A stretch of DNA of 64,000 nt, taken from positions 1 to 64,000 of the forward strand of contig NZ_NFLM01000006.1 in NCBI RefSeq assembly GCF_002160915.1. Reading direction: 5' to 3'. A model generated the notes under the pieces. It had not been told where the DNA came from. It saw nothing but the letters and a program-made list of their open reading frames with translations, and did not search any database. Numbering within the stretch: the stretch's first letter is position 1; every line of letters starts with the position of its first letter. The translations under genes were made by a program, and so were the position numbers. Origin of the DNA: Faecalibacterium sp. An121 (GTDB lineage: Bacteria > Bacillota > Clostridia > Oscillospirales > Ruminococcaceae). Below, piece after piece: positions 32,896 to 54,025 of this stretch.

Positions 32896-32913
32896 GGTTT
32901 TTCTCCTTCCGTT

Positions 32914-36713: not shown

Positions 36714-36724
36714 TGTTTTCTCCT

Positions 36725-37654: not shown

Positions 37655-37666
37655 ATTCCTTCCTTG

Positions 37667-37760: not shown

Positions 37761-37774
37761 CAGGAGGAAGAAAA

Positions 37775-38347: not shown

Positions 38348-38384
38348 AATAAGTTTTATGTATGCCCCCTTAACCGGGGGCTTT

Positions 38385-39845: not shown

Positions 39846-39940
39846 TGAAGCGTTTTGTCAAGTGTTATTTGGAGTTATTGACGCACAATCAAGGCGAAAG
39901 CGCGAAAGTGCAAAGCGCAAAGGGTCTGCACTTTGCGTTT

Positions 39941-41842
39941 TCAGCTTGCGGGTTCGGGCGGCTGCTTCTTCTTGATGAAGTTGTACCATTGACCGCCGAC
40001 GCGCCTTGCGCCCAAAACACCGCCCATGTTGCGCTTGGCGTTCTGTACCGTCCTCTCGGATATTCCGGCTTCGGCTGCGGCCTTTACAAGGTCCTCGCTG
40101 GCAAGCTCTTTCCCGTCTGCAAGCAGGTCAAGTATCAGCCGTTCCGCCTGTTCGGTCTTGGTGGCGGTGTTGCCGCCCGCGCCGGACAGCAGCTCGTCGG
40201 CGGTAATGTCATACTCGCCTATCCACGAAAAGCCCGTTTCCGGGTCAAGGCAAAAGGCTATGGGCTTACCCTCCGGCGCAAGAGAAGATTTGTCATGGAC
40301 GATAACGCGCACATTCGGTTCCCGTTTCACGCGCCCGATCAGCAGGACGCTCCTTGCTGCGGCGCGGAAGTCGATGGAGCCTAAACCCCGGTAGGCGCTC
40401 TGTCCTCCGGCGGCTTTGTTGAGGTGTCCGATTAGGATAACGGCGCACCCGGTACGCTCGGCAATCTCGGCAAGGCGGCGGAACATGGGGCGTATCTCGT
40501 TGGCCTTGTTCATGTCGGTTTTCTCGCCCACATACGCCTGTATGGGGTCAAGGATAATCAGCCGCGCCCCGGTCTGTCGGATAGCTCTCTCTATGCGCTC
40601 ATCGGACAGGGAAAGCCCCTGCTTGCTCTCGTCAATGACAAGAATGCGGTCAAGGTCTGCTTCGGCTTCCATAAGGCGGGGCTTGATGGTGTCGCCCAAA
40701 CCGTCCTCGGCAGTCTGGTAAATCACATTGAACGGCTCATGCACTGCCATGTGGGGGAACGGCTTGCGGTTGGTACAAGCGGCGGCAAGGCGTAGGGCAA
40801 AGGTGGTCTTGCCCTCGCCGGGGTTGCCCTGCACAATGGTTACTTTCCCAAAGGGGATATACGGCTCCCATAACCATTCGACGGTCTGCGTGTCCACCTC
40901 GCTCATGCGGATAATCTCAACGGTTTCTTCCTGCGGCGGCTCTTTCAAGCCGTAGACCGCTTCTCGCAAATACTTCCCGTCTGTGATTTCTGCCCGGTGC
41001 TGCAATACCTCGTTCCAATCCTTGAAAAGAGGGATAAGCCGGTGGACGGTGTAGCCCTCCGGCATGAGCTTCACAAGGCGGCTGCAAGCGTCGTTTCCGG
41101 CTTCGTCGCTGTCAAGGCAGAGATAAACGGTCTTGATGTTCGGACGGTCAGAGAGAAAGCGGAGCAGGGCTTTTTCTCCCACGCCGCCCAATGACAGGTA
41201 GCTTTGCTTCTGCCAATCCTTTTTGAACAGGCAGAGGAAAGAAAGCAGGTCAACGGGGGCTTCAAAGACAAACACTCTTTCGCCCTCGCCCCGGTAGCAG
41301 AAGTTAAAGGCTTTGTCGCTGCCTTTCACATCAAGGCGGAAGTTTCCCGCCGTTCCCTTGCTGTGGGCGTAGCGCGGTATTCCGTCCTCGTCCCGCCCCA
41401 CAAATACGGCGTTGTGGTGGGCTGCGTCCTCGTAAATATCGCCGCTGGCAAAGAAAAAGCCCGTCACATCTTCATCAATGCGGCGGGCGGCTGTGAGGTA
41501 GTTCCTCGCTGTTCGGTTGTCGGGGCTGCGGGGCGGTAGCCGGAAGTCGGAGAGGGGCGCGGAGCTTGGTCTATCCGGCGGCGGTGCGGCTCCCTTTTCT
41601 CCTGTGAGAAGTTCAACGGCTTCGGTAAAACTCTTGCCAAAAAACTCCATGACAAAATCAATGGGGCCGCCGCCCTTGCTCTGGCTGTGGCGATACCACT
41701 TGTTGCCCCGGACGGTCAAGCTGTCGTGCCGTTTCCATCGGTATTCCTGTCCGGCGCGTTCCAGCGGTTCCCCCTGCGATTGCAGGAACAAAACAAGGTC
41801 GGCTTGGTTCGCCCGGTCTATCTGTTCTTGGGTGTAGTACAA
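39941..41842 (-). CDS. Primase-helicase fusion: DUF3991/Toprim plus RepA-like AAA ATPase (IME2)
   Basis: A 633-residue replication protein. The N-terminal half has a CHC2-like/DUF3991 part ('ANQADLVLFLQSQGEPLER', 'GGPIDFVMEFFGKSFTEAV') and a Toprim core ('VFVFEAPVDLLSFL', 'VYLCLDSDEAGNDACSR'). The second half is a RepA/RecA-like helicase with Walker A 'VQGNPGEGKTTFALRLAAA' and Walker B 'LIILDPIQAYV', then 'RTGCAVILIGHLNKAAGG'. It should prime and unwind IME2 DNA after transfer. TTG at 41842 is preferred because AAAGGAG lies seven bases before it; ATG at 41860 overlaps the relaxase stop and is the alternative. Confidence 0.9.
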   Translation of the reverse strand: MYYTQEQIDRANQADLVLFLQSQGEPLERAGQEYRWKRHDSLTVRGNKWYRHSQSKGGGPIDFVMEFFGKSFTEAVELLTGEKGAAPPPDRPSSAPLSDFRLPPRSPDNRTARNYLTAARRIDEDVTGFFFASGDIYEDAAHHNAVFVGRDEDGIPRYAHSKGTAGNFRLDVKGSDKAFNFCYRGEGERVFVFEAPVDLLSFLCLFKKDWQKQSYLSLGGVGEKALLRFLSDRPNIKTVYLCLDSDEAGNDACSRLVKLMPEGYTVHRLIPLFKDWNEVLQHRAEITDGKYLREAVYGLKEPPQEETVEIIRMSEVDTQTVEWLWEPYIPFGKVTIVQGNPGEGKTTFALRLAAACTNRKPFPHMAVHEPFNVIYQTAEDGLGDTIKPRLMEAEADLDRILVIDESKQGLSLSDERIERAIRQTGARLIILDPIQAYVGEKTDMNKANEIRPMFRRLAEIAERTGCAVILIGHLNKAAGGQSAYRGLGSIDFRAAARSVLLIGRVKREPNVRVIVHDKSSLAPEGKPIAFCLDPETGFSWIGEYDITADELLSGAGGNTATKTEQAERLILDLLADGKELASEDLVKAAAEAGISERTVQNAKRNMGGVLGARRVGGQWYNFIKKKQPPEPAS

Positions 41843-41856
41843 AAAACTCACTCCTT

Positions 41857-43371
41857 TCATCGGTCTATGTCGTGCCGCTTTGTGCGGGTCTGTGTCTGCT
41901 CCGGCTGGTCGGCGCGGAGTGCAATATCCACGCATTTGCGGATTTTTTGAAGTTCGGAAACATCGGCGCGGGTATCTTTCAGTTTGGCATAATCGCTGTC
42001 CCTCTGTGTTTTGAGGTCGGCATATTCCTGTTCCCATTCCGCAATAGGCAAGGTCTTTGTTCCTTTCGGCAGATTTGCATGGAGATAGCGGCTTGCTGCG
42101 TTCCATAGGGTCAACTCGGCGCGGTGGGCTTCCTCGTACTTGTCGCGCTTGTTTGTCCAGCCGTTTTGCAGCTTTTTCAGCTCATCGTGAACGGGCTTGT
42201 ACTCGGTGTAGTTCTTCCCGTATTCAATCAGCTTTTGCAGCTTCTTCATGCGTTCCTCGGCGGTTTTCATTCCTGCCCGGATAGTGTCGGCCTGTTCGCT
42301 GACAGAGGAAAGGGCTGCGTCCAGCTCATCAAGGGTAGAGATACCATGCTCGGTCAGATAGTTGACCGCTGCCGCTATGGTTTTCAGTTCATCGGCTGTG
42401 TGCTGTTGTTGCCAACGCTGCGAATACTTCCGGCTCTTTTCTCTCTGAACGCTCAAATACTTCATCAGCAGATTTGCAAGGCCGGGGGATTGTTGCGGCT
42501 GTTCCGGGGCGGTTTCCCACGCTTTGAACAGGTCGGCAATCCATTCTTTGAGCTTTCCAATCTGCGCTCGGATTTCCCGTATAAGGCGGTTTGCCTTTTG
42601 GATATTCCGGTTCAGTTCGCCTTTCTCGGTGGCAATACCTTTCTTCTCCATCTGGCAAGCCGCCACGCCCATGTGGACGGTGGGTATCTCGCCAATGCCG
42701 CGCTCGGCGTTGCTGCGGTGGTCGATACGCTCCGGGCTTCCGGCTCGTTCAAGGTAGGCGTTTGAAATATCCGCCCATGCCTTACGCCACAAGAGGGCGT
42801 TGCCCTTGTCGTTCCAGCCGGTCAGGTCAACTTTGTGCGTCTTGTATCTGCCGCTTGGCAAGCGGATACGCTCGCCGTTTTCATCAAGGTCATATTCCTT
42901 TTGGGACTTTGCCGCCCATGCGCCGCGCTCGTCAAGGGGGCGCATGGTAAGCATGATGTGACAATGGGGATTGCCCTTGCCGGTGTCGTGAATGGCATAA
43001 TCAACGCACATTCCTCTGGAAACAAATTGAGAGGAACAGTATTCCCGGACAAGTCGGATTTGTTCCTCTCTGGATAACTCTATGGGGAGCGCCGCGTCAA
43101 TCTCTCTGGCAAGCTGGGCGTTCCCGGCTTTCTCGTAAAGCTCCACGCTGTTCCACAAGGTTGAACGGTCAGAGAAAGAGGGCGGGGCGTGGGGTGGCAG
43201 CATAATTTCCGTATGGACAACACCGCCTTTGCGGGTGTAGTCGTGTGTCATTCCGTCCCACTCATTTGTCAGCTTTTCGCCGCTTCGGTAGGCGGCTGCG
43301 GCAACGGCTGATTTGCCCTTGCCCCGGCTGACAATGCTGATATTACAATGATAGATGGCTATGGGTATCAC
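41857..43371 (-). CDS. MOBQ-family MobA/MobL relaxase of IME2
   Basis: A 504-residue relaxase beginning near 'IPIAIYHCNISIVSRGKGKS' and 'AVAAAAYRSGEKL', hallmarks of MobA/MobL (PF03389). The metal-binding motif is 'AIHDTGKGNPHCHIMLTMRP' (HxxxxxNPHxHIM). A long coiled-coil C-terminus follows. GTG at 43371 is chosen as start since the family begins there, although the GGGAGG site directly abuts it; upstream in-frame codons look like noncoding oriT DNA. It should nick the RSF1010-like oriT at 43569-43596, about 200 bases upstream. Its stop overlaps the primase-helicase start region. Confidence 0.92.
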   Translation of the reverse strand: MIPIAIYHCNISIVSRGKGKSAVAAAAYRSGEKLTNEWDGMTHDYTRKGGVVHTEIMLPPHAPPSFSDRSTLWNSVELYEKAGNAQLAREIDAALPIELSREEQIRLVREYCSSQFVSRGMCVDYAIHDTGKGNPHCHIMLTMRPLDERGAWAAKSQKEYDLDENGERIRLPSGRYKTHKVDLTGWNDKGNALLWRKAWADISNAYLERAGSPERIDHRSNAERGIGEIPTVHMGVAACQMEKKGIATEKGELNRNIQKANRLIREIRAQIGKLKEWIADLFKAWETAPEQPQQSPGLANLLMKYLSVQREKSRKYSQRWQQQHTADELKTIAAAVNYLTEHGISTLDELDAALSSVSEQADTIRAGMKTAEERMKKLQKLIEYGKNYTEYKPVHDELKKLQNGWTNKRDKYEEAHRAELTLWNAASRYLHANLPKGTKTLPIAEWEQEYADLKTQRDSDYAKLKDTRADVSELQKIRKCVDIALRADQPEQTQTRTKRHDIDR

Positions 43372-43568
43372 CTCCCGGATAAAATGAAAACCCGCAAAAA
43401 TGGTACAGACGCCAAAGGCGGGTATACTGTTTTTGTGGGTGTGCAGGGATAGCCGCGTAAGCGGCGCAAGGGGTGCAGCCCCTTGTTGCGGCAAAGCCGC
43501 CAATGTCGGTCAGAGAGGGAAGCAAGCGGCTTTCTCTCTGTGCCGACAAGCCCTCGGCAGAGCGCACG

Positions 43569-43596
43569 CACCCGTAAGGGTGTATAAGTGCGCCCT
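43569..43596 (+). other. oriT of IME2, RSF1010/R1162-type (MOBQ)
   Basis: CACCC (43569-43573) and GGGTG (43578-43582) form a short inverted repeat around GTAA, followed directly by TATAAGTGCG then CCCT. The IncQ nick core is TAAGTGCG/CCCT next to an inverted repeat, so the predicted nick is between 43592 and 43593. It lies just upstream of the MOBQ relaxase gene, the normal place. The match to the IncQ core is from memory and exact over 12 bases. Confidence 0.87.
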
Positions 43597-43610
43597 TTGT
43601 ACCAAAGGGA

Positions 43611-43916
43611 TTATTCGCTTTTCCCGCCCTCGGTGCGTTTTTTCAGATAGCCCCGCGCTTCCTCGCTCGTCAGGGCAAGCCGGAGAAAGGCGGCGGCTTC
43701 TTCGTCGGTCATGGTCTTTGCTTCTGGCACAATGCTCTCAAAGACCGCACCCCGGACGATCAGCCGATGGCTGCGCGTCCTGCGTTCCTCTTGGGATAAC
43801 TTTTGCCGCAACACCTTTTCCCGATTTTCAAGCTGCCGGATTTTCTTCTTCCCGTCCTCAATCTCGGCTTGCAATTCCTCGCGTTTTTTTCTCTCGGTTT
43901 CGTCATGGGTGGTCAC
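43611..43916 (-). CDS. DUF3847 protein, relaxase-associated (IME2)
   Basis: A 101-residue charged protein: an N-terminal coiled coil ('ERKKREELQAEIEDGKKKI', 'RQLENREKVLRQKLSQEERR'), then 'RTRSHRLIVRGAVFESIVPE' and a helical end with 'LTSEEARGYLKK'. This matches DUF3847, found beside MobA/MobL relaxases, and by place it may act as the MobC-like oriT-binding partner. It lies immediately next to the oriT. Confidence 0.8.
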   Translation of the reverse strand: MTTHDETERKKREELQAEIEDGKKKIRQLENREKVLRQKLSQEERRTRSHRLIVRGAVFESIVPEAKTMTDEEAAAFLRLALTSEEARGYLKKRTEGGKSE

Positions 43917-43939
43917 TCCTTTCTACCTGTCGGCATAGA

Positions 43940-43972
43940 AAAAGGACAGTCGATTTCCTCGGCTGTCCTTTT
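43940..43972. terminator. Bidirectional terminator after the methyltransferase gene
   Basis: AAAAGGACAG (43940-43949) pairs exactly with CTGTCCTTTT (43963-43972), with CGA/TCG inside. T runs occur on both strands. It lies between the methyltransferase stop and DUF3847. Confidence 0.8.
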
Positions 43973-44037
43973 GATTAGGGTGTTTGGTTTACTCCGTTCT
44001 GCTCAATAAATGGGAATATTAAATATCAATACGCCCT

Positions 44038-44871
44038 TTAATACATTCCTATTAAAACATCAGCTTCGATTGTCAAATGTGTGAGAGTACGCCAATCAAC
44101 GCAATCTTTTTCAACGCAAAAGAGAAGCGGCGTCATTTCAATAAACGACATTCTTTGTTCTGATGACAACTGTACGGTGGCTGAAACCGTTTCTCTTGAA
44201 ATGGTTTTAAGATATTTCTCAAAATATTCAACGACAGACTCATTTGAATAATCTGGATTTTTCAAGTGTGCTTGCACTTTAGTCCTGATTTCCCTCAAAT
44301 GATTTTTCGTAGGAATTACTTTCACAACATATCCGTTAGGAGATAGCAATCGCTGAAATTCTTTGTAGTGTGCAGGCGAAAATATGTCTAAAATACAATC
44401 CATACTTCCGTCTTTCAAAGGGATTTTTGATAAGTCAGTAACAAACCACTTCACTGCTTTGCGCTTGTCTTTTTTTGATGCAATCTGTATTGCCTCCCTT
44501 GACAAGTCAAAGGCAAAGATGTTTCGTTCTGTTCTTTGCTGTATCTGCCTTGCATAGAAACCCTCGCCGCAACCAACATCTAAAATGTTTCTTATAGATG
44601 GCGTATCAGAAATAAACTGTATGATTTTCTCCAACACAACATCATACATGCCATACTCCAAAATTTGGTGCCGGTTGTCAAAAGACCGCTTGCTGTAGTT
44701 GGTTTTGGGCGATGATTTTAACAACAAATTTACATACCCATATCTTGAAATATCAAAGCAATGTCCATGTCTACAAATTAGGCTATTGCCTTGTATATCC
44801 ATTGATTTTGTGCAAATTGGGCATTGAAAATAAACCTTGCTGTCTGCAAAGCGTGATAAATTATTATTCAT
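44038..44871 (-). CDS. RlmA/TlrB-like 23S rRNA (guanine-N1) methyltransferase
   Basis: A 277-residue enzyme. The N-terminal zinc module has 'FQCPICTKSMDI' and 'LICRHGHCFDISRYGYVNLL', as in RlmA(I)/RlmA(II); a SAM-binding Rossmann fold follows with 'ILDVGCGEGFYARQI' and 'VTDLSKIPLKDGSMDCILDI', then 'SPAHYKEFQRLLSPNGYVVK'. RlmA(II)/TlrB methylates G748 of 23S rRNA at the macrolide tunnel and contributes to tylosin-type resistance. The gene is A+T-rich beside G+C-rich neighbours, so it was acquired. Its leader (44951-44977) ends in MRLR, the sequence at which macrolides stall ribosomes, supporting a macrolide-inducible resistance role. GGAGG precedes the ATG. Confidence 0.85.
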   Translation of the reverse strand: MNNNLSRFADSKVYFQCPICTKSMDIQGNSLICRHGHCFDISRYGYVNLLLKSSPKTNYSKRSFDNRHQILEYGMYDVVLEKIIQFISDTPSIRNILDVGCGEGFYARQIQQRTERNIFAFDLSREAIQIASKKDKRKAVKWFVTDLSKIPLKDGSMDCILDIFSPAHYKEFQRLLSPNGYVVKVIPTKNHLREIRTKVQAHLKNPDYSNESVVEYFEKYLKTISRETVSATVQLSSEQRMSFIEMTPLLFCVEKDCVDWRTLTHLTIEADVLIGMY

Positions 44872-44908
44872 TTGTTTTTCCTCCGTAATTACATCTCTGC
44901 TTCAATAA

Positions 44909-44950
44909 GCGAGTTATGCAATACGGATAACCGCAACATAACTCGCGGTT
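44909..44950 (-). promoter_or_regulatory. Attenuator with alternative hairpins before the methyltransferase
   Basis: Two stems compete. One pairs GCGAGTTATG (44909-44918) exactly with CATAACTCGC (44937-44946). The other pairs AACCGC (44929-44934) with GCGGTT (44945-44950), sharing bases of the first. A further TCCGTA segment could cover the TACGGAGG ribosome site of the methyltransferase. Ribosome stalling on the leader immediately upstream would block one fold, the layout of erm and mef attenuators. Confidence 0.8.
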
Positions 44951-44977
44951 TTATCTTAATCTCATAAATGTAACCAT
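44951..44977 (-). CDS. Leader peptide MVTFMRLR (macrolide-sensing)
   Basis: An eight-codon ORF, MVTFMRLR then TAA, preceded by GGAGG at an eight-base spacing. It resembles the mef leader MTASMRLR and the MRLR stall site of the ErmD leader, where a macrolide in the tunnel arrests peptide transfer at an Arg-x-Arg motif. It abuts the alternative hairpins in front of the methyltransferase. The function is inferred from the motif and layout. Confidence 0.85.
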   Translation of the reverse strand: MVTFMRLR

Positions 44978-45039
44978 TGTGTTGTCCTCCAATCAATTCC
45001 GCAGTATTACTCTGCTTTTAGAAAAAGTATAGCACAAAA

Positions 45040-45342
45040 CTATGAACATTTCAACTCTATTTCAGCCTGTCGGCGACGTTGCTCTCTCTGGCATACCGCC
45101 CGCCGTTCCTCGCTGTATGGGGCGGTCAGACGGAAAGAGAAGCGGCCTTTCTCAATGTCAAACTCCATGCAGCCCGTTTCCGGGTCTGCGTCAGTCTGCT
45201 GGCAGATCGCCGGATAACGGCGGCTGTATGCAAGCAGACGCTTTTTCAAGGCGGTGTTGTGGGTGCGGATATGGATAAGGGGGTCTTTCTCGTCAAACCA
45301 AATATCGGTGGTCTTTTCCTGCTTGGTAAGCCCTGTTCTCAT
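45040..45342 (-). CDS. Conserved 100-residue IME2 protein, function unknown
   Basis: The protein has 'DIWFDEKDPLIHIRTHNTAL', 'ETGCMEFDIEKGRFSFRLTA', and a basic Gln/Arg-rich C-terminus. No domain recognised. A good AAAGGAG precedes the ATG. It is placed between the TnpW gene and the leader of the methyltransferase, a position conserved in memory for related elements but not checked. Two hairpins sit just upstream: TGCCCCT/AGGGGCA around 45370 and GTTTTCTCC/GGAGAAAAC (45392-45421). Confidence 0.6.
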   Translation of the reverse strand: MRTGLTKQEKTTDIWFDEKDPLIHIRTHNTALKKRLLAYSRRYPAICQQTDADPETGCMEFDIEKGRFSFRLTAPYSEERRAVCQREQRRRQAEIELKCS

Positions 45343-45441
45343 GCAAACTCCTTTCTGTGCCCCTGTTACGCAATAGGGGCATTTTTCGGGTGTTTTCTCC
45401 GGCTCTTGACTTGGAGAAAACGGCGTTTTTGACGATAAAAA

Positions 45442-45473
45442 CCGCCCGGACGTGGAATGTATCGTCGGGGCGG
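45442..45473 (-). terminator. Terminator after the TnpW gene
   Basis: CCGCCCGGACG (45442-45452) pairs with CGTCGGGGCGG (45463-45473) with minor mismatch; on the minus strand it is followed by TTTTTATCG. Confidence 0.75.
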
Positions 45474-45476
45474 CTG

Positions 45477-45692
45477 TTATCGCAAGATTTCCGATTTTTC
45501 CGGCTCTTGACCGTCAGACGCAGATAAACACGAACTGTCGGCAAGTATCGTCTTGAGCAGCTTGTCGCGGAATGTTTCTGTGCTGCTGTGATTGAAAAAT
45601 AACTCCGCAACAATAGTCTGCCCGTTTCTCTGCGTCGTGATAATACTGTCGGGGTTCCGGGGCGCGGTGGGCGTCCCGTTCTGTTCTGTCAT
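45477..45692 (-). CDS. tnpW: TnpW family protein of IME2
   Basis: A 71-residue protein with 'MTEQNGTPTAPRNPDSIITT' and 'AELFFNHSSTETFRDKLLKT', typical of transposon-encoded TnpW beside serine recombinases. The role is unknown; it may influence excision. It is preceded by GGAG and separated from the recombinase by a strong terminator, so it needs its own promoter or readthrough. Confidence 0.8.
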   Translation of the reverse strand: MTEQNGTPTAPRNPDSIITTQRNGQTIVAELFFNHSSTETFRDKLLKTILADSSCLSASDGQEPEKSEILR

Positions 45693-45717
45693 AGGCGGCT
45701 CCTTTCTCCGGGCGCAA

Positions 45718-45751
45718 AAGAGGGACTTCCCGTAGCCGGAAAATCCCTCTT
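45718..45751 (-). terminator. Terminator after the IME2 recombinase gene
   Basis: AAGAGGGA (45718-45725) pairs exactly with TCCCTCTT (45744-45751), with further TTCC/GGAA pairing inside; on the minus strand TTTTGC follows. Confidence 0.8.
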
Positions 45752-45770
45752 GGTTGTCGGTTATTCTGTT

Positions 45771-47621
45771 TTACTGTGCGGGCTGTGCGGCGGCGGTCTG
45801 CGCCTTTCTCCTTGCCCGGTATTCCCGCGCCTTGATACGGTCATACTCCCGCTGCTTTTCAAGGTTTCGCGCCCGGTACTCCCTTGAATACTGCCGGTGA
45901 TAGGCGCGGCTCTTTTCCTTTTTGGCTTCTTCGATTTCCTCCCGCATTTGCCGGATTTCCTGCTCCGTTGGCTCTGTAAGCTGTGTCACTTCGTTCTCAA
46001 ATTTGCCGATATAGTTGAAATATATCCCGATGTGCTGAATGGCTTGTTTTGCCCTTTTCTTGTCGCGCTCATGCACTTCAATCCGGCTGATAAACTCGTT
46101 GAGAATGGCGGGGGTCAGGTCGGTAAAGGCAGCGTAGCGTTCCGTCAGCTTCAAAAACTTCTGCGCCCGTCCGCCCGCGTTCTCAAAAGCGGATAGCTGC
46201 TCTTGCAGCTCGGCAAGCTCCGCTTTCAGCGCATAGTATTCTTCTGAATACTTCTGCGACATTTGCTCATAGCGGTCTTGCGGGATCGTGCCGAGGGCGT
46301 TGTCCTCATAGAGCTTGTTCAGCACCTTGTCAATCTGTTCAAGGCGCGTCGTGATTTGCGGGATACGCTTCTGCTGTTTCTTGGTCTTGTCGGTCTGCTG
46401 CATGGCAAGGTTCTTTTTCACTAAGGCTTCAAATTCCGCCCAGTTGCTGATAGAATAGTCCTCGATTTTCTTCAGCACTTCCGCGATGGTCTGCATGAGC
46501 AAATCCGCGTCAATGATGTGCGGGGAATTGCATTTGGGGTTTTTGGCTTTTCCCTTGTGGTACTCGCTGCAATAGGCAACATGACGCTTGCCGCCATTCC
46601 GATAATCTATGCGAATGTGCATTTTCGCACCGCAATCCTTACAGAAAAGCAAGCCCGACAAAGGGTGGATTTCCCCGTCCCCGTTGGGGCGTTTGACGGG
46701 CGCATTTTCCAAAATCCGCTGTACGGTTTCAAAGTCGGTGCGGTCAATAATCGGCTCATGCACATTTTCGGTTATCTGCCATTGGCTCCGGTCTACATAG
46801 TGGTTCCGCTTGTCGCGGAAGTGCTTTGTGGTCTTGAAGTTGACAACATCACCGCAATACTCCTGCCGTGTGAGGATATGGGTCAGGGTGGCTTTGTTCC
46901 ACTTATAGCGGTTGGCCTCATTGAGCGCCCTGTTTTTACAGGTTCCCCGCCCGCGCTCTTTCATGTAGAATGTGGGCGTTGGGATTTGCGCCTGCGTGAG
47001 ATATACGGCAATTTGGTTTCGGTTTTTTCCGTCCAGAAACAGGCGAAAAATCAAACGAACAACTCCGGCGGCTTCCTCGTCGATAATCCAAAAATCCTTG
47101 TTGTCCGGGGATTTGACATAGCCATAGGGGGCTTCGGTGGCAATCGGCTTTCCACTCATGCCCTTCGTCTTAATGCCGGTCTTTACTTTCTTGCTGATGT
47201 CCTTTGCGTACCACTCCGACATGATGTTGATAAAGGGCGCAAACTCCAATGTATCGGGCTTTTCGCTGTCTATCCCGTTGTTGACTGCGATAAAGCGCAC
47301 ATTGTTCCGTCTGAATATCTCCATCGCATTGCCGACTTGGAGATAGTCACGCCCCCAGCGTGTCAGGTCTTTCATAATGCAGACACCGATTTTCCCGTTC
47401 TCTACATCGTCCATCATGCGGGAGTAGGCAGAACGGTCAAAAAATCTGCCGCTTTCGTCATCGTCAATGTAGTGCCGGATATTGGTTAAGTGCTGCCCTC
47501 TGGCGTAGTTCTCCAAAAAGATTTTTTGGTTCTGTATCGAGTTACTCTCACCGCCGTCCCTGTCCTCGTCGCCCACGGAAAGGCGGGAGTAAAGGGCTGT
47601 AATTTTACTATAATCAGTCAT
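45771..47621 (-). CDS. Large serine recombinase of IME2
   Basis: A 616-residue recombinase. The resolvase domain has the nucleophile in 'ITALYSRLSVGDEDR', then 'YIDDDESGRFFDRSAYSRM' and 'VCIMKDLTRWGRDYLQVG'; the recombinase domain and zinc ribbon follow ('LLFCKDCGAKMHIRI', 'KNPKCNSPHII'), then a long coiled coil and a basic Arg-rich tail. ATG at 47621 is preferred because AGGAGG is eight bases upstream; longer frames would begin inside virD4. It should excise and insert IME2, thereby switching virD4 off and on. Confidence 0.94.
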   Translation of the reverse strand: MTDYSKITALYSRLSVGDEDRDGGESNSIQNQKIFLENYARGQHLTNIRHYIDDDESGRFFDRSAYSRMMDDVENGKIGVCIMKDLTRWGRDYLQVGNAMEIFRRNNVRFIAVNNGIDSEKPDTLEFAPFINIMSEWYAKDISKKVKTGIKTKGMSGKPIATEAPYGYVKSPDNKDFWIIDEEAAGVVRLIFRLFLDGKNRNQIAVYLTQAQIPTPTFYMKERGRGTCKNRALNEANRYKWNKATLTHILTRQEYCGDVVNFKTTKHFRDKRNHYVDRSQWQITENVHEPIIDRTDFETVQRILENAPVKRPNGDGEIHPLSGLLFCKDCGAKMHIRIDYRNGGKRHVAYCSEYHKGKAKNPKCNSPHIIDADLLMQTIAEVLKKIEDYSISNWAEFEALVKKNLAMQQTDKTKKQQKRIPQITTRLEQIDKVLNKLYEDNALGTIPQDRYEQMSQKYSEEYYALKAELAELQEQLSAFENAGGRAQKFLKLTERYAAFTDLTPAILNEFISRIEVHERDKKRAKQAIQHIGIYFNYIGKFENEVTQLTEPTEQEIRQMREEIEEAKKEKSRAYHRQYSREYRARNLEKQREYDRIKAREYRARRKAQTAAAQPAQ

Positions 47622-47668
47622 GTGCATAACCTCCTGTGCGTCCATATAGGCTTCCTTTACACTTAAAA

Positions 47669-47974
47669 TTATGCACTCCAGCGGGCCGAGCCATACTCGC
47701 TGCCGTGGCGGTACTTCTTGGCGTTCTTGCCTTTCAGGTAGACCGCCAGCCGCAGCCCTGCGCCGAGACACAGCCCCACCAGCAAATCCAGCGGGTGGAA
47801 GCTGGGAATAATCCGCCCCAGTGCATCCGGGAGAACGGTCATCAGAGACTGCATCTTTTCGGTCATGTCAGCACCCGCCGCCATTCGCCAGGCCCAGCCC
47901 AGGTTGGTGGCATACAGACCCATCAGGATATAGGGCAGGTTCAGGATTACCAATCGTTTTGTGTTCTGGTTCAT
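47669..47974 (-). pseudogene. virD4: VirD4/TraG coupling protein, 5' part (split by IME2)
   Basis: The first 99 residues of VirD4 ('MNQNTKRLVILNLPYILMG' to 'HGSEYGSARW') with two transmembrane helices, then two IME2-encoded residues and a stop at 47669. The remaining 485 residues are at 38385-39842. The start overlaps the pcfB stop (ATGA). On its own it would be a short membrane peptide without ATPase. Confidence 0.93.
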
Positions 47975-48438
47975 CGGTCGGCACGCTCCTGTCTCTTTTC
48001 CCTCATTTTGCCAGGCACCAACTCAGCAGCCAGGGCCTTGAACTGCTCCAAACGCTCCAGAACGCTGGGGCGTTTTTCTTTGTTGACCAGCTTGGCGGAG
48101 TAGTCCTTGAAAGCTGCGGTCAGGGTATCGGCGTCCCGCGCCTTGAAGAAAACCACATACCGCGGCGGGGTGTCGTGGTTCTTGGTGATAGCGTAGTCCA
48201 CGCCGTACTTGTCCAAAATCCGCTTGAAGTCCCGGATGCCGGTTTTCTCGATCTCGATGTTGGTGGCTCCCTGATCCTGCCGCAGCAGCTGCTTGACGCT
48301 CTGTTTGCCCACCGGCTTGCTGTGCGCCTTGCCCGCTCTCCACTGCAAGAATTTACGCGCTGCCGCCAGAAGTGTCCTCCCCGTCAGTTTGGTGGTGCTG
48401 ATGGCAAAGTTGATCGTTCTGTTCTCTATATCTTCCTG
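47971..48438 (-). CDS. pcfB: PcfB family conjugation protein
   Basis: A 155-residue PcfB-like (DUF3801) protein with 'TINFAISTTKLTGRTLLAAA', 'IRDFKRILDKYGVDYAITKN' and 'VVFFKARDADTLTAAFKDY', ending in a basic tail. In enterococcal pCF10, PcfB works with the coupling protein PcfC to pick the substrate, matching its place directly before virD4. Start at ATG 48438 behind AGAAAGGA; an ATG at 48453 is possible. Its stop overlaps the virD4 start. Confidence 0.85.
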   Translation of the reverse strand, partial: QEDIENRTINFAISTTKLTGRTLLAAARKFLQWRAGKAHSKPVGKQSVKQLLRQDQGATNIEIEKTGIRDFKRILDKYGVDYAITKNHDTPPRYVVFFKARDADTLTAAFKDYSAKLVNKEKRPSVLERLEQFKALAAELVPGKMREKRQERADR

Positions 48439-48532
48439 CATGGGCTTCACCATCCTTTCTGGCCTGCAGCAGGGCTGCAATCAGGAACCCAAACCAGGTT
48501 CCTGCCGCAAAATGTGCCATTCCCGCCCACAT
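48353..48532 (-). CDS. Small DUF3789-like membrane protein
   Basis: A 59-codon ORF beginning three bases after the previous stop, encoding 'MWAGMAHFAAGTWFGFLIAA' then a charged tail. The single N-terminal helix resembles DUF3789 proteins common in ICEs and phages. Its second half overlaps pcfB in another frame, so only the first 30 residues may matter. Confidence 0.45.
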   Translation of the reverse strand: MWAGMAHFAAGTWFGFLIAALLQARKDGEAHAGRYREQNDQLCHQHHQTDGEDTSGGSA

Positions 48533-48534
48533 GG

Positions 48535-48987
48535 TCAGTCCAGCCGGATGCCCATAAAGCTGTCCGGGCCGGTCATCAGGATGACGGTGTGATCTTTGAG
48601 GAATTCTGCCACCCGGTAAAGATCATCCACCGTGAGGGATACCGTATATCCCTTTTCATCAATCCTGAAAAAGATCATGGGGCCGGTCAGATAGTATTCC
48701 TCTCCGATCCGCAAAACCTGCTCCGGGCAGTAGCTCATCATAACGGGGATGTCTTTGAACCCGTAGAGCATATCGGTTTCATCGAAGCAGGGCAGGATGT
48801 CCGGGGCATCTGCCAGACGGATGACAGACAGGGGCAGATCGGGAGCCGCGGCGGCCAGATAGGGCTTGGTTTCTTCCTCTGCCGGGGGCGGACCTTCCAG
48901 GCATGCTTTCAGCATTTTTTCCATGGCGCAGACTTTATCGTAAATCTGCCGGGTAGTGATGGTGGCTGCGGTTTTCTTGGTTGCCAT
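48535..48987 (-). CDS. Conserved ICE protein of unknown function
   Basis: A 150-residue protein with an N-terminal helix ('TITTRQIYDKVCAMEKMLKA') and a beta-rich C-terminal half ('GEEYYLTGPMIFFRIDEKG', 'LTVDDLYRVAEFLKDHTVIL'). No named domain. ATG at 48987 follows GGAGGTAACG. It lies between parB and pcfB in the maintenance-to-transfer operon; function not known. Confidence 0.65.
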   Translation of the reverse strand: MATKKTAATITTRQIYDKVCAMEKMLKACLEGPPPAEEETKPYLAAAAPDLPLSVIRLADAPDILPCFDETDMLYGFKDIPVMMSYCPEQVLRIGEEYYLTGPMIFFRIDEKGYTVSLTVDDLYRVAEFLKDHTVILMTGPDSFMGIRLD

Positions 48988-49038
48988 AGGCGTTACCTCC
49001 AAATTTTCAAGTTGTGTTCTGGTTGTTTTGCCAGCCGG

Positions 49039-49956
49039 TCAGCGTTCCTGACTGCGTTGACGTTTCTTTTGCCACTGTTCCAGGAGCTTCAGGATGGTTT
49101 CCTCCATCTGACGCGGGGTGTAGGACTTGGGGAAATACTTGCGCAGAACGTCGTTCTTAATGGTCACACGGTCCATTTCAGCCTTTTTCTCCTCGCCCAT
49201 GATGTCGAAAATGGCATCGTAGCTGCACTGTCCAGCCTGGCTCAGTTTTTTGATTCTCTGGGCCTGGGACAGGGAAGGAGCGTTCTGGGTATCCTGCATA
49301 GCCTCAAAAAAATCCCGCTGCTCGGAGGTTGTCAGGTACGACAGCTCCACAGCGGGATTGAAGGATATTTTCTTTTGGTCTACCAGTTCCAGAAGTTCGG
49401 GGATCAGATTGGTGAGGCGAATAAATCTTTTGACTTGAGACTTACTGTCATCACTATCCAAGGCTATTTTTTCTGCGGCTGTCAACTTCGGCCCAACTTG
49501 GGCCGAAGTTAAATCCGACCTAGCACCTTGATTTTTTATGGCTTCCAGCTTCATTTTGTACGCAAAAGCCCGCTCACTGGGCAGAATGCTCTCGCGCTGC
49601 AAATTGCTGTCCACCATCTGAATCACTGCCTGGTCATCATCCATGTTGCGTACAATCACCGGCAGGGTTTTCAGCCCTGCCAGCTCGGCGGCGTGCTGCC
49701 GCCGGTGGCCCGAAATAATCTCATAGCCTCCTTCCTCCCGCGGTCGGACAACCAGCGGGGCCAACACGCCAAACTGTGCTACGCTCTCCACCGTCCGCTG
49801 CATGGCCTCATCATCCAGCACCTTGAAGGGGTGGTTTTTGAAGGGATGCAGGTCTGCGATGGGGATTTGCTGAATCTGCTCGGTCTGGCGGCTTTCTTCG
49901 GTAGAAAAAATGTCATCGTAGCTGGTCAAGCTGATGTTTGCGCCGTTTTTCGGCAC
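49039..49956 (-). CDS. parB: ParB/Spo0J-family partition protein
   Basis: A 305-residue ParB. The N-terminal CTP-binding ParB domain shows 'QIPIADLHPFKNHPFKV', 'VLAPLVVRPREEGGYEII', 'SGHRRQHAAELAGLKTLPVI' and 'VDSNLQRESILPSERAFAYK'; a helix-turn-helix region follows. Unlike many ParB proteins the middle carries a Ser/Asp-rich insert. GTG start at 49956 behind GAAGGAGG; it overlaps the last 44 bases of parA. It would bind centromere-like sites and work with ParA to keep the ICE in dividing cells after excision. Confidence 0.92.
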   Translation of the reverse strand: MPKNGANISLTSYDDIFSTEESRQTEQIQQIPIADLHPFKNHPFKVLDDEAMQRTVESVAQFGVLAPLVVRPREEGGYEIISGHRRQHAAELAGLKTLPVIVRNMDDDQAVIQMVDSNLQRESILPSERAFAYKMKLEAIKNQGARSDLTSAQVGPKLTAAEKIALDSDDSKSQVKRFIRLTNLIPELLELVDQKKISFNPAVELSYLTTSEQRDFFEAMQDTQNAPSLSQAQRIKKLSQAGQCSYDAIFDIMGEEKKAEMDRVTIKNDVLRKYFPKSYTPRQMEETILKLLEQWQKKRQRSQER

Positions 49957-50740
49957 TTTGCAGCACCTCCTTCGTCAGTGCCCGGTAGGCTTCCGCCACT
50001 TTCCCCTTGGGGTCATGGGCATAGATACTCCTGCCTTCGGCACTGGTTTCCGCTGCCCGCACAGACCGGGGTATTCCCTGGGCAAATACCTTGATTTTGC
50101 CCCCATAGGCCTGCCGGACCAAGGCGTCGATCTCCTTTCCAAAGCTGGTTCGGCTGTCGGTCATGGTCATCAAGATGCCTTCAATCCGCAATCGCGGGTT
50201 GATCTGCCTTCGCACCTTGCTGATGGTCTGTAGCAGCTGCTCCAGGCCCTTGGCGGGCAGATATTGTGCCTGTACCGGGATCAGGGCACTATCTGCTGCG
50301 GCCAAAGCGTTAATCGTGAGCATACCGAGACTGGGGGTACAGTCCAGCAGAATATAGTCATAGGATCGCTTGTTGACTTCCAGCACCTGCTTCAAGACCT
50401 TTTCCCGGCTCATGGCATTCACAAGGCCCACTTCCATCCCGGCCAGCTCGATGCTGGACGGGATCAGGTCCACACCCTCTGCGTGATGGAGGACTCCTTC
50501 TCCGGGCTGGATTGGCTTGTCCTCCAAAACCTTGCCCATAAGGGTGGAAAGGGTGGTTTCTAGTTCATCAGGTTTGGGCCAGCCCATGCTGATGGTAAGC
50601 GAACTTTGTGGGTCTACGTCCACCACCAGCACCTTTTTGCCCTCCATGGCAAGGCCCACCCCCAGATTTTCGCAGGTCGTGGTCTTGCCAGTGCCGCCTT
50701 TCTGGTTAGTTATGGCGATTACGGTTGCTTTTTGGGCCAA
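49913..50740 (-). CDS. parA: ParA/Soj-family partition ATPase
   Basis: A 275-residue ParA with deviant Walker A 'ITNQKGGTGKTTTCENLG', Walker A' 'VLVVDVDPQSSLT', and 'YDYILLDCTPSLGMLTINAL'. It should partition the excised ICE with ParB. TTG at 50740 is preferred as start (six bases after AAGGGGGT, giving MAQKATVIAITNQKGG); an in-frame ATG at 50758 lies in that site's upstream half. Operon order repA-parA-parB. Confidence 0.93.
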   Translation of the reverse strand: MAQKATVIAITNQKGGTGKTTTCENLGVGLAMEGKKVLVVDVDPQSSLTISMGWPKPDELETTLSTLMGKVLEDKPIQPGEGVLHHAEGVDLIPSSIELAGMEVGLVNAMSREKVLKQVLEVNKRSYDYILLDCTPSLGMLTINALAAADSALIPVQAQYLPAKGLEQLLQTISKVRRQINPRLRIEGILMTMTDSRTSFGKEIDALVRQAYGGKIKVFAQGIPRSVRAAETSAEGRSIYAHDPKGKVAEAYRALTKEVLQSAEKRRKHQLDQLR

Positions 50741-50774
50741 ATCATCACCCCCTTTCACACCCGGCAGGTGCCGG

Positions 50775-51653
50775 TTACTTTGCGTTCAGGTCGTGCTGCA
50801 CCCGGGCCGCGTAGCTGCTGTGCATGGTCATGGGTGCATTGTAGAGCGAAGCCAGCAGATACTGCCGCATATTCCGCACCTGGGTGGTGTTTTCTTTCAG
50901 ACACATCAGGACAAAACGGATATGGTCGCTGTTCAGCTTCATCAGCTGGCCTCGAACCACTTCAGCCGGTTTATCATCTCCTGCGATTCGGATCATCTTC
51001 CGATGGCTGCACACGGTATCCACCAGCAGCTCCTGCATCTCCCGTAGCATATCCTCGTCTTCGGGGTTGGCCTCCATCAGAGCATCAAGGCCCAGTTCCT
51101 GAGAAAAATAATCCTGATACAGAGCGCGGTCGTCTTTCCCTTCGGCTTCCATTCCGGCGTCTGAGCCGGAAAAGAAGGGATCAGTCTCGCTCATCTCAGT
51201 CTTATTCTGATTCGTCTTATTACCGTGTCCTTTTGACACCTCTTGCCGTGTGGAAATGACACCACTGGACGTGTCGTTTTGACACTTCTGGAAGTGGCTT
51301 TCCGACACTTCTGTAAAGTTTTTCACATAGATCAGATTGGGCCTCCCCAGGCCCTGCCTCCTGCGCTCGATCAGACCGGCCTTTTCTTCCAGCTCCCGCA
51401 GCAGGCCCACCGCCTTCTTGTTGCCGCAGGCCAGGCTCTCCATAATTTCTTCAACGGTAAAGATGATGTACACCCGGCCAGTGCTATCCAGCCAGCCGTT
51501 TTTCACCGACAGGCTCATCCTGTCCAGCAGCAGGCCGTACAGAATCTTGGCTTCTGCCGAAATCCCGCGGAACCGCGGGTCGGCAATGAGGATCTTGGGC
51601 AGCCGATAGAAAGAAAACAGGTCAGCCTGTCCGCCAGTGAAGTAGTTCGCCAT
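50775..51653 (-). CDS. repA: Replication initiator RepA (RepA_N/DUF6017 type)
   Basis: A 292-residue protein. The N-terminal RepA_N winged-helix domain reads 'FYRLPKILIADPRFRGISAE', 'AKILYGLLLDRMSLS', 'YIIFTVEEIMESL' and 'KKAVGLLRELEEKAGLIERR'. After a variable linker, the C-terminal part has 'LMKLNSDHIRFVLMCLKENT' and 'VRNMRQYLLASLYNAPMTM', as in DUF6017. It probably initiates replication of the circular ICE. AAAGGAG precedes the ATG. Next to parAB, it gives the ICE a plasmid-like maintenance module. Confidence 0.9.
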   Translation of the reverse strand: MANYFTGGQADLFSFYRLPKILIADPRFRGISAEAKILYGLLLDRMSLSVKNGWLDSTGRVYIIFTVEEIMESLACGNKKAVGLLRELEEKAGLIERRRQGLGRPNLIYVKNFTEVSESHFQKCQNDTSSGVISTRQEVSKGHGNKTNQNKTEMSETDPFFSGSDAGMEAEGKDDRALYQDYFSQELGLDALMEANPEDEDMLREMQELLVDTVCSHRKMIRIAGDDKPAEVVRGQLMKLNSDHIRFVLMCLKENTTQVRNMRQYLLASLYNAPMTMHSSYAARVQHDLNAK

Positions 51654-51711
51654 GATGTTTCTCCTTTCTTAGTTCATCCGTGTCTGTCATTCTGTGGGCA
51701 GGGAGGCAATC

Positions 51712-52470
51712 TTACCTCTGCCATGCCTCAATCTCGGCCAGCTGCCGGCGCAGCTCATCTTTTCCGGCCGGGGTGAACAGGGTGTAGCAGCCGAAGAAAC
51801 CGGTATCCCGGTTGTAGAAGTCCCTAACAATGAAAAAGCCCCGACGGAAGGGTCCCGCGTAGGGCATCAGGTTTCCGGCAGGGGCACGGTAGAGATACTT
51901 CTTATGCTGAAGATACTTGCAGAACAGCCGCTCGGGCACATTCAGCTCCTTGGCCGTGGCCCGGATGTTGGTGCAGTCACCCGGATTCACAAAGGCGTCG
52001 TAGAACTCTGCCTTGGGCTTCAGGTTCAGCAGCTCCTTCCGCAGCGCTTTGTTTTCCCTCCGCTCCTTGACCAGGGCGTCGGCAAAGCGGAAAAGGATTT
52101 CCGGGTCTCTCTCGATCTGCTCCAGCAGCGATTCACCCAGGTAGCCGCCGTGCTTGCGGATGGTGGGGAGGACCTCGTCGAACACCCAGCGTTCAAACCG
52201 CACCGCAGTGGGCAGCTTGCTGTGAACGATCAGCCGGTAAACATCGCCTTCAGGGATAAACGCCATCTCAATGGTCTTGTTCGGCGACTGGGGATGCGGT
52301 GCGTAACGTTTCGTTACGCACCGGCAGTGGTCAGTTAAAGCTTTACGGTTGTTCTTGTAGCCCAGCGCCTTGGCTACGTCCAACCCACAGAACAGGCACT
52401 TGCCGTTTTCCTGAATCACGCGAATCTGTCCGAACTCTTTGCTGCTGAAGCTGGCCATCATGTTTTCCAT
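51712..52470 (-). CDS. BRO-N/KilAC antirepressor-like protein
   Basis: A 252-residue protein with a BRO-N domain ('IRVIQENGKCLFCGLDVAKA', 'LGYKNNRKALTDHC', 'IPEGDVYRLIVHSKLPTAVR', 'FERWVFDEVLPTIRKHGGYL') and a C-terminal KilAC/ANT region ('LKPKAEFYDAFVNPGDCTNI', 'PERLFCKYLQHKKYLYR'). Such proteins act as phage antirepressors or DNA-binding regulators. At the ICE right end it may control the maintenance and transfer operon. Start at ATG 52470 behind AAAGGAG. Confidence 0.88.
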   Translation of the reverse strand: MENMMASFSSKEFGQIRVIQENGKCLFCGLDVAKALGYKNNRKALTDHCRCVTKRYAPHPQSPNKTIEMAFIPEGDVYRLIVHSKLPTAVRFERWVFDEVLPTIRKHGGYLGESLLEQIERDPEILFRFADALVKERRENKALRKELLNLKPKAEFYDAFVNPGDCTNIRATAKELNVPERLFCKYLQHKKYLYRAPAGNLMPYAGPFRRGFFIVRDFYNRDTGFFGCYTLFTPAGKDELRRQLAEIEAWQR

Positions 52471-52551
52471 AACTGAGTCTCCTTTACTCTGTTGCTGGTT
52501 CATCAAAGAGGCCCCCTTCGCTCCTTCCCGAAGGGGCCGTCCATTCTTCCG

Positions 52552-52770
52552 TTATGCCGAGAACTTATCTTTGCGCAGCGGCTTGTCCCGCAGCGTCCTC
52601 CGGGTCTTGTCCATCGGACACCGGACAAACAGACAGGTTCTGTACTTGAAGTTGGGCTGGTTGTATTCACAGCTGCCGCAGCAGGCCGGCCTCTTGGCCT
52701 TTTTGGTCTGCCGCTCTTTTTTCTGAACCAGTTTCTCCGCTCGGCGGATGTCTCCCGTTTTCTTACCCAT
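52552..52770 (-). CDS. Small Cys-containing basic ICE protein
   Basis: A 72-residue basic protein with 'CCGSCEYNQPNFKYRTCLFVRC', i.e. a CCxxC...C...C cluster that may bind zinc. Start at 52770 behind GAGGAGG, overlapping the end of the next upstream gene. No family known to me; its place before the antirepressor suggests regulation, which is a guess. Confidence 0.65.
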   Translation of the reverse strand: MGKKTGDIRRAEKLVQKKERQTKKAKRPACCGSCEYNQPNFKYRTCLFVRCPMDKTRRTLRDKPLRKDKFSA

Positions 52771-53056
52771 GACCGTTCTTCCTCCTCGCTGCTTTTGCTT
52801 CACGCTGCTTCCACAGGTCCCGTTCCAGGTCCTTATAGCAGCAGGCACTGACGCAGGGGGTGCCCACCGCGTACCGGCAGCCCTCACACTTCCGTTCTTC
52901 TTCGGTAATGACTACCTGGGCCAGGTAGTAGCAGTTCTCTCTGCCCAGGATGCAGCCCCGCCTCCTGTTTTTCCAGAACTGGCAGAACCGGCAGTCGGCC
53001 GGGCGGTCTGCGTGGTAGCGAACACCGTCGATCATGATGTAGTTCCGATCTTCCAT
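52763..53056 (-). CDS. Cys-rich ICE protein, probable metal-binding
   Basis: A 97-residue protein with nine or ten cysteines in pairs: 'DCRFCQFW', 'RRRGCILGRENCYYL', 'KCEGCRYAVGTPCVSACCYK'. This suggests a small zinc or iron-sulfur site. Start ATG 53056 behind AAAGGAG. It is the first gene of the ICE right-end operon and follows a strong terminator-like hairpin 30 bases upstream. No function known. Confidence 0.65.
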   Translation of the reverse strand: MEDRNYIMIDGVRYHADRPADCRFCQFWKNRRRGCILGRENCYYLAQVVITEEERKCEGCRYAVGTPCVSACCYKDLERDLWKQREAKAARRKNGHG

Positions 53057-53087
53057 AGTACTGACTCCTTTCATTGTATCGGGAAAC

Positions 53088-53134
53088 AAAAAAAGCGGCC
53101 CTGATCTGCCATACCCTGGCAAGTCAGAGCCGCT
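53088..53134 (-). terminator. Terminator/attenuator in the leader of the right-end operon
   Basis: A 17-base imperfect stem (53094-53110 with 53118-53134) is followed on the minus strand by seven T, a full intrinsic terminator. It lies only about 30 bases before the first gene of the operon, so transcripts begun upstream would stop unless relieved. Confidence 0.8.
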
Positions 53135-53470
53135 ATGTATATTCCGCAAAGACCGACCAAAAAAGCCGTCAGTCTCCTGGATGTTTCTGATTTCTATAGG
53201 CTGGGAGCTAATTTTCCGATGCAGGTTTTTTCGCATTTCTGGAAGCATCTTCCATTTTTTCCTGTTTGGGCTTCCAATTTTTGGTGGATGATCGTTAAAT
53301 GACATCGTTGGGAATTGGAGCTTTGTTCTTTTTTAGTCCGGCCTGAAAAAGGACCTCGAAAATTCCTTCTAGGCCCAGGCCCTTTTTCATTGGTTTTCGG
53401 CTAAGAACTTTTTTAAAATTTAGCCTCGTTCCCGTTTTGGGCTGGAAAAACCTGGTTTTCCCAACAAAAA
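53135..53470. other. Gene-free leader region at the ICE right end
   Basis: About 335 bases between the tRNA-Arg terminator and the attenuator hairpin. Rich in A/T tracts with many TTTTT runs. No convincing gene: the one longer minus-strand frame (53295-53489) has no ribosome site and overlaps the tRNA terminator. It may hold the promoter of the right-end operon or integrase arm sites. Confidence 0.5.
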
Positions 53471-53518
53471 ACGCGGAAAACTGGAGCAAGACTTTCTCGT
53501 CTTACCAATTTTCCGCGT
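53471..53518 (-). terminator. Terminator of tRNA-Arg
   Basis: ACGCGGAAAACTGG and CCAATTTTCCGCGT form the outer stem with AGACT/AGTCT-like pairing inside; on the minus strand TTTTTT follows. It begins seven bases after the tRNA 3' end. Confidence 0.85.
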
Positions 53519-53525
53519 AAAGGAA

Positions 53526-53599
53526 TGTCCCCGCCCGGGCTTGAACCGGGGGCCTCGGGCTTAGGAGGCTCGCGCTCTATCCAACTGAGCTACGGAGAC
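53526..53599 (-). tRNA. tRNA-Arg(CCT), probably carried by the ICE
   Basis: Read on the minus strand the cloverleaf is complete: acceptor GTCTCCG with CGGGGAC, D arm GCTC...GAGC, anticodon loop CTCCTAA with anticodon CCT, T arm CCCGG TTCAAGC CCGGG, discriminator A, no encoded CCA. The anticodon stem CGAGC/GCCCG has one A.C mismatch. It has its own terminator. A separate broken 5' half of a very similar tRNA lies 240 bases upstream, so this copy may replace a gene destroyed by integration. Confidence 0.88.
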
Positions 53600-53838
53600 T
53601 TATAGCTTTTTGATGATTTTTTGTTTGAATCTTAACTGGTTTTCGGTTTTCGCTTTATTTTGTGTTTTTTGCCTTTGGAGGCTTTTCAGCCGTCCCAGCC
53701 GGTGCCGAATTTCCAGTTTTTGGGCTTTTTTGCACCTCTTTCAGCCGTCAGAAGCCGGTTTTTCGGGGGTGCGCTTGATAGATTTTGAACTGCCATCTGC
53801 ATTTTTCCCAGCGGAAAGAGGTCCTTGACCGTCTACCA
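53600..53838. other. Gene-free stretch between tRNA-Arg and its broken copy
   Basis: About 240 bases with repeated TTTTCGG-like words and no ORF with a ribosome site. It probably contains the promoter of the tRNA-Arg and the right attachment region of the ICE. Confidence 0.5.
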
Positions 53839-53878
53839 CTTAGGAGGCGAGTGCTCTATCCAGCTGAGCTACGAAGAC
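53839..53878 (-). pseudogene. Broken 5' half of a tRNA-Arg gene (likely ICE attachment site)
   Basis: On the minus strand GTCTTCG, a full D arm, CTCGC and the anticodon loop CTCCTAA plus one base are intact, then pairing is lost (no GCGAG, no T arm). It aligns without gaps to the first 40 bases of the complete tRNA-Arg, differing at a few positions. The break at the anticodon loop suggests integrase crossover there. Confidence 0.75.
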
Positions 53879-53942: not shown

Positions 53943-54025
53943 TGGTGCGAGGGAAGGGATTTGAACCCTCAAGGTTACCCACACGCACCTCAAACGTGCG
54001 CGTCTGCCAGTTCCGCCACCCTCGC
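53943..54025 (-). tRNA. tRNA-Leu(GAG)
   Basis: An 83-base gene with encoded CCA. Acceptor GCGAGGG/CCCTCGC, D-arm with GGCGGAACTGGCAGACGC, anticodon stem CACGT/GCGTG around TTGAGGT (anticodon GAG), a class II long variable arm and T arm GGGTTCAAATCCC. It belongs to the host chromosome beside the ICE end. Confidence 0.93.

Follow-up and report, generated by a model that had tools for sequence, protein, structure and literature searches.

A conjugative element of Faecalibacterium ends in the host's single tRNA-Arg(CCU) gene, split at the anticodon loop, and carries a complete tRNA gene that probably replaces it and offers a fresh attachment site

The sequence analyzed here (the window) comprises bases 1-64000 of contig C56 (145 kb) in the assembly of Faecalibacterium sp. 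An121 (G000; 2.71 Mb in 62 contigs). Most of it is the right part of an integrative conjugative element (ICE), followed by host chromosome, and the GC content is 0.54 in the ICE versus 0.63 in the host flank. The main features are listed in Table 1. Besides the genes given there, the ICE encodes a CD1108-type NlpC/P60 protein and a topoisomerase III, and no phage structural family was found among the scanned ORFs of the window. The CD1115 coupling protein, the CD1108 NlpC/P60 protein and the TrbL/VirB6-type proteins are presumably shared with the Tn1549/CTn-type ICEs of Clostridia. To our knowledge, typical ICEs of that type do not use a tRNA gene together with a replacement tRNA. The ICE also encodes a protein of 2752 aa that has MutS_I-like and helicase domains (4814-13072, minus strand). 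A group II intron with a reverse transcriptase/maturase (21820-23735, minus strand) directly adjoins the TraG-like ATPase gene, which it may interrupt, and two large serine recombinases of the DUF4368 type (27023-28705 and 45771-47771, minus strand) lie within this tyrosine-integrase ICE, suggesting nested mobile elements.

Table 1. Features of the window, with the evidence for each
Feature	Position	Strand	Evidence
MobA/VirD2-like relaxase	82..1086	-	Pfam PF03432, 1.4e-35
TraG/VirB4-like P-loop ATPase, part	20338..21768	-	Pfam PF19044
TrbL/VirB6-like conjugation protein	25611..26477	-	Pfam PF19478, 8.8e-70
VirD4-like coupling protein, CD1115 family	38385..39815	-	NCBIfam NF045973, 1.1e-167
ParB, ParA, RepA_N replication/partition genes	49039..51653	-	Pfam
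Terminator-like hairpin past the replacement tRNA	53470..53518	-	Fold -28.4 kcal/mol, z -6.8
Complete tRNA-Arg(CCU), putative replacement	53526..53599	-	ARAGORN and Rfam, 61.2 bits
Element arm X, from core to replacement tRNA (putative attP right arm)	53600..53838	-	95% identity in G001
ICE right part	1..53838	-	119-bp overlap with C1; GC
5' half of original host tRNA-Arg(CCU), positions 1-39; chromosome side of right junction	53839..53878	-	Sequence and pattern
Putative crossover core CTCCTAA, the 7-nt anticodon loop, in both junctions	53840..53846	-	Shared-sequence comparison
Host tRNA-Leu(GAG), upstream of the split gene	53943..54025	-	ARAGORN and Rfam

C56 starts with 119 bases that match the reverse complement of C1:230125-230243 exactly, a stretch that adjoins an IS3-type transposase gene. 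If C56 continues into C1, the left part of the element occupies C1:~230.1-255.0 kb and the whole measures ~78.6 kb (53.8 + 24.8). Left of the 119 bases, C1 carries a different sequence, including ICE genes ~82% identical to those of the window; C1 may be misjoined there, or two elements may share the 119-bp stretch. Continuity of C56 and C1 as one element is likely but not proven. With the contigs joined in this way, the element contains an integrase, a relaxase and a conjugation apparatus, as expected of an ICE. Two other regions of C1 deserve mention: 209-230 kb (L215, L128) holds a second, related ICE, with up to 82-83% identity to the window, a MobA-like relaxase and a serine recombinase, and 242517-247175 (L129 5517-10175) encodes a sugar permease (MFS_2) and a GH2 beta-galactosidase, apparently as ICE cargo.

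From the letters of the window, the original prediction had placed a 40-base 5' half of tRNA-Arg, ending just after the anticodon loop, at the border between ICE and chromosome. Reading the minus strand from 53878 to 53839, we indeed find GTCTTCGTAGCTCAGCTGGATAGAGCACTCG-CCTCCTAAG, after which the sequence departs from that of a tRNA, the cut lying at CTCCTAA. The matching 3' half, to be sought at the left end of the ICE, was also found. As a query we used the 3' half of the intact tRNA gene of genome G013, from another Faecalibacterium species, the 5' half of which equals that of An121, and obtained a 98% match at C1:255026-255073, starting 406 bp past the stop of a 460-aa tyrosine integrase gene (C1:253238-254620; Pfam Phage_integrase, 4.5e-18); upstream of the integrase lie a helix-turn-helix gene and a PemK-type gene. 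When the 5' and 3' halves are joined they give a perfect tRNA, with 0/74 mismatches to the intact G013 gene, in agreement with the proposal that the ICE cuts the host gene at the anticodon loop.

The left junction at C1:255026 reads ...AAAAGTAG|CTCCTAAG|CGAGGGGCCGGCAGTTCGAATCTGCCCGAGGACGCCA. The shared core is CTCCTAA(G), CTCCTAAG being 8 bp; in An121 and in genome G001 alike, the 5' and 3' halves and the two element arms share no sequence except CTCCTAA. In the attB sequence, the 5-bp anticodon stem forms symmetric arms around this anticodon-loop core. Most islands that target tRNA genes have a 3' half in attP, by which the host gene is restored (Islander, PMC4383910), and in that case our 5' half would be an old, unrelated remnant. 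Some X arms of relatives (e.g. L102, L103, L182) do start with CGGCAG or CGGAAG and contain a T-loop-like GTTCGAATCC, resembling decayed tRNA 3' halves; they are perhaps remnants of such halves, hinting at an evolution from classical gene-restoring elements. We nevertheless consider a classical island highly improbable here, as the true host 3' half lies at the far end, beside the integrase, the rejoined gene is a perfect tRNA that exists intact elsewhere, the element arm past the core does not fold as a tRNA, and the 5' part of the intact tRNA differs from the host half. No restored hybrid tRNA was found, the host 5' and 3' halves being at opposite ends of the element.

A complete tRNA-Arg(CCT) gene with a terminator had been predicted some 240 bases inside the element, sharing its first half with the broken gene and having a slightly mismatched anticodon stem. 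It sits 239 bp deeper in the ICE than the 5' half, is followed by a terminator-like hairpin, and has 35/40 bases in common with the half, CCTCCTAAG among them. The mismatch is A29-C41 and recurs in tRNA1 of G016, G030 and G010, and therefore does not indicate decay. The 9-mer CCTCCTAAG occurs only twice in the 2.7-Mb assembly, in the half and in the complete gene; it is absent elsewhere because the left junction retains only CTCCTAAG. Checking for another tRNA-Arg(CCT), we found none in the genome, either with ARAGORN or in a survey of 59 tRNA hits; the other tRNA-Arg anticodons are TCT, CCG and ACG. A weak tRNA-like match near a contig start (C60:224-279, 32 bits, not called by ARAGORN) was considered as the missing half and rejected, being an unrelated tRNA-like fragment.

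Genome G001, a relative of the same genus, carries the same 401-bp element end (X plus the replacement tRNA, 94% identity) beside a different host half, which begins GCCCCCG... there and GTCTTCG... in An121. The shared end also includes the terminator, and the end of the G001 type is thus present in two species. Since the same end is joined to another host half, the tRNA belongs to the element and travels with it, which upholds the prediction that the element supplies a complete tRNA of its own. Arm X differs at 12/239 positions between the two genomes. The tRNA itself shows 0/74 differences, versus 42/764 (5.5%) in X and the 3' flank (p = 0.019), a conservation that would be expected for a gene under selection.

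The layout recurs widely. Among 31 Faecalibacterium genomes, one or more 5' halves precede a complete tRNA-Arg(CCT) in 17, and at least one separate 3' half is present in 13. Nearly all genomes of the genus that we examined have exactly one complete CCT gene, G003 having two, one of them near a contig end. Across the order, which we take to be Oscillospirales, 32 of 394 genomes from 23 genera match a short-gap pattern, defined as a tRNA half followed by another tRNA 5' end within 40-100 bp. A control with the pattern reversed gave 0 matches in the order survey, and this, together with the recurrence in many relatives, excludes that the layout arose by chance. No matches to the strict short-gap pattern were found in the class outside the order. 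Right ends were identified in Flavonifractor sp. An100 and Candidatus Galloscillospira, and left ends (integrase plus 3' half) in Anaerotignum lactatifermentans, Fournierella massiliensis and Pseudoflavonifractor phocaeensis.

In closed genomes, the 3' halves are found 35-137 kb away, adjoining integrase genes. In G010, G022 and G030, relatives of the An121 integrase (54-58% identity) are neighbours of the 3' halves; in G012, a relative in the same identity range adjoins the replacement tRNA instead. The halves can be paired across these distances. On one strand of the closed genome G030 there are, in this order, two 5' halves (A1 and A2), the complete tRNA3 (941477), and the 3' halves B2 (869091) and B1 (804605). 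Joining the inner pair (A2+B2) yields the replacement tRNA of G012, and joining the outer pair (A1+B1) the tRNA of G016, with 0 differences in both cases. The halves therefore match like brackets, with element 3 (~72 kb) inserted in the tRNA of element 2 (~64 kb), and element 2 in tRNA1. Single layers are seen in G012 (47 kb), G010 (35 kb) and G022 (80 kb), and the joined halves of G022, G026 and G003 equal the tRNA of G006 and G029, again with 0 differences.

One could argue that such rows come from a local duplication in the host, a tandem tRNA-Arg of which one copy decayed, with nothing borne by an element. Tandem 5' halves spaced at 80-280 bp do look duplicated, and identical units of half plus X repeat in G021, by duplication or by repeated insertion. 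Even so, we give this explanation very little credence, given that X and the tRNA are conserved together as a unit next to host halves that differ (G000 versus G001), that the 3' halves lie so far off, next to integrase genes, in closed genomes, and that the core, X and the tRNA occur without a host half in a phage-like contig. In that IMG/VR contig (L230), no half precedes the core and a complete tRNA-Arg(CCT) follows about 60 bp on, an arrangement that matches what a free attP should look like. Another viral-contig match was rejected as a free attP: it carries a host 5' half and is thus integrated. No attP with a longer gap was found in the viral contigs.

Insertion into element-borne tRNAs also appears to have left footprints. 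The 5' half beside the element in G001 comes from the tRNA of an earlier element, and the 3' half from another tRNA. Ahead of the present half (contig C67, bases 6657-6759; L227) there is a decayed core and arm of a lost element. The earlier element thus appears to have been lost, and recombination between two left junctions would delete it and leave a footprint of this type. Such a deletion would also account for rows in which the 5' halves lack 3' partners, as in G021. At that locus (L177), one intact tRNA is preceded by three 5' halves that have arm X in common, two of the halves being identical to the element's own tRNA; the repeats may reflect either several insertions by elements of one type or a tandem duplication.

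We also looked for unoccupied sites. We found no strain of this species in which the exact site is empty, and the empty sequence was seen only as the intact gene of G013, at another locus; a search with the sequence past the 3' half gave no synteny in relatives. In G014 and G015, the tRNA-Leu(GAG) adjoins an intact tRNA-Arg(CCU). G006, G029 and G016 were rejected as empty sites: their upstream sequences match, but the downstream ones do so over only about 120-180 bp. Because those 120-180 bp are shared with element-borne tRNAs, the genes of these three genomes may be former element genes.

Consensus matching detected no sigma-70 promoter in X, so transcription of the replacement tRNA possibly starts upstream, at the host promoter that precedes the 5' half. 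AGG is a rare codon (about 3-4 per 1000 codons), and the host may tolerate losing the CCU tRNA, since a tRNA-Arg(UCU) is present and could read AGG by wobble. The element's tRNA might be kept for another benefit, such as codon supply for cargo or resistance to a tRNA-cutting toxin, and its replacing the host gene would be incidental. AGG is slightly commoner in element genes, at 4.0 versus 2.8 per 1000 in host genes (from few genes), and the bodies of the tRNAs differ strongly among elements. We consider this unlikely all the same: the isotype is always that of the broken gene, the anticodon loop is the same as the host's, the attachment arm is where the tRNA gene sits, and almost every genome examined contains a single intact CCU gene.

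Our preferred reading, to which we assign a probability of about 0.9, is that an ICE, whose right end lies in the window, is inserted in the host's single tRNA-Arg(CCU) gene, which it split at the anticodon loop, and that the replacement tRNA it brings doubles as a fresh attB. The tyrosine integrase, if active, would exchange strands within the 7-bp anticodon loop CTCCTAA, between attB (...CTCGC-CTCCTAA-GCGAG...) and attP (...AAAAGTAG-CTCCTAA-GTGGTAGACGG...), and would presumably also act in excision. As the attP arm has no usable tRNA 3' half, the host gene would stay permanently split, with its 5' half at the right end and its 3' half at the left. The complete tRNA-Arg(CCU) of the arm, with its own terminator, would be expressed in place of the lost gene and may be needed by the host. 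Because it contains CTCCTAA and the flanking stems, it could serve as a new attB for later elements, whose insertions would produce a row of 5' halves ahead of one intact gene, with the matching 3' halves at the far ends. Sequence comparison demonstrates the crossover region, the split, the matching of the halves, the origin of the tRNA in the element and the nesting.

This mode of integration resembles the tRNA-dependent lysogeny of the actinobacteriophages Fionnbharth, Gabriela and Gaia (Guerrero-Bustamante and Hatfull 2024, mBio, PMC10865867). Both rely on a tyrosine integrase and a very short core in a host tRNA gene (8-10 bp in the phages), the tRNA is not rebuilt at the junction, and the element encodes a replacement of the same isotype. 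The original prediction had set the arrangement apart from the usual restoration of the 3' end; this holds in that no gene is restored, but the phage case means that it is not unprecedented. The phages are temperate, infect Actinobacteria and use tRNA-Lys-TTT and tRNA-Leu-CAA, whereas here the element is conjugative, resides in Oscillospirales and uses tRNA-Arg(CCU). The need for the tRNA was demonstrated in mycobacteriophages, where its deletion blocks lysogeny (PMC10865867), while for the ICE we infer it. The phage tRNA can lie outside the attachment arm (that of Fionnbharth overlaps gene 37), and the authors only speculate on tandem integration into the carried tRNA; here, the carried tRNA is on the attachment arm at a distance of 40-250 bp from the core, where it would renew the target, and elements are seen nested serially in nature. 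With its relaxase, VirD4, TraG, TrbL and RepA_N genes the element is not a temperate phage, so it works like tRNA-dependent lysogeny without being a strict member of that class. The Lj965 prophage of Lactobacillus johnsonii, as far as it is described where cited in PMC10865867, likewise encodes a cognate tRNA and does not rebuild the host's, but is a lactobacillus prophage and not a conjugative element. With classical tRNA-gene islands (Islander, PMC4383910; Williams 2002, to the extent cited in PMC4383910 and PMC8371274) our element has in common the crossover in the anticodon loop, the symmetric anticodon stem and the tandem arrays at one tRNA gene. Those islands restore the gene with a tRNA fragment of their own, whereas our element leaves the two host halves stranded and supplies a whole gene. 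Tycheposons, marine elements of the Prochlorococcus type, are also described as residing at tRNA genes and having a tyrosine recombinase.

In the literature we searched, which included few subscription journals, there was no paper on replacement-tRNA integration by conjugative elements or in Oscillospirales, and nothing relevant on tRNA-Arg with Faecalibacterium or Tn1549. The principle is known from phages; what is new is its use by conjugative elements and in Oscillospirales, the attachment-arm tRNA that would renew attB, and the natural serial accretion. With our findings, tRNA replacement reaches beyond actinobacterial phages to the conjugative elements of common gut bacteria. They also point to the occurrence in nature of what was only suspected, namely that a carried tRNA renews the attachment site and that elements stack in it. 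Stacked insertions would explain the rows of broken tRNA halves, and 5' halves matched to distant 3' halves can help to order past insertions. Island finders that match each tRNA to a fragment of itself will mis-pair such ends.

A core translation gene thus appears to be swapped by mobile DNA. We lean towards the wider view that the sole tRNA-Arg(CCU) of much of the order is held by mobile elements, each incoming ICE or phage destroying the resident copy and installing its own, which becomes the next dock. If this is true, the tRNA-Arg(CCU) gene would have been replaced repeatedly by horizontal transfer, and the cost of losing the element's tRNA gene would tie the host to the element.
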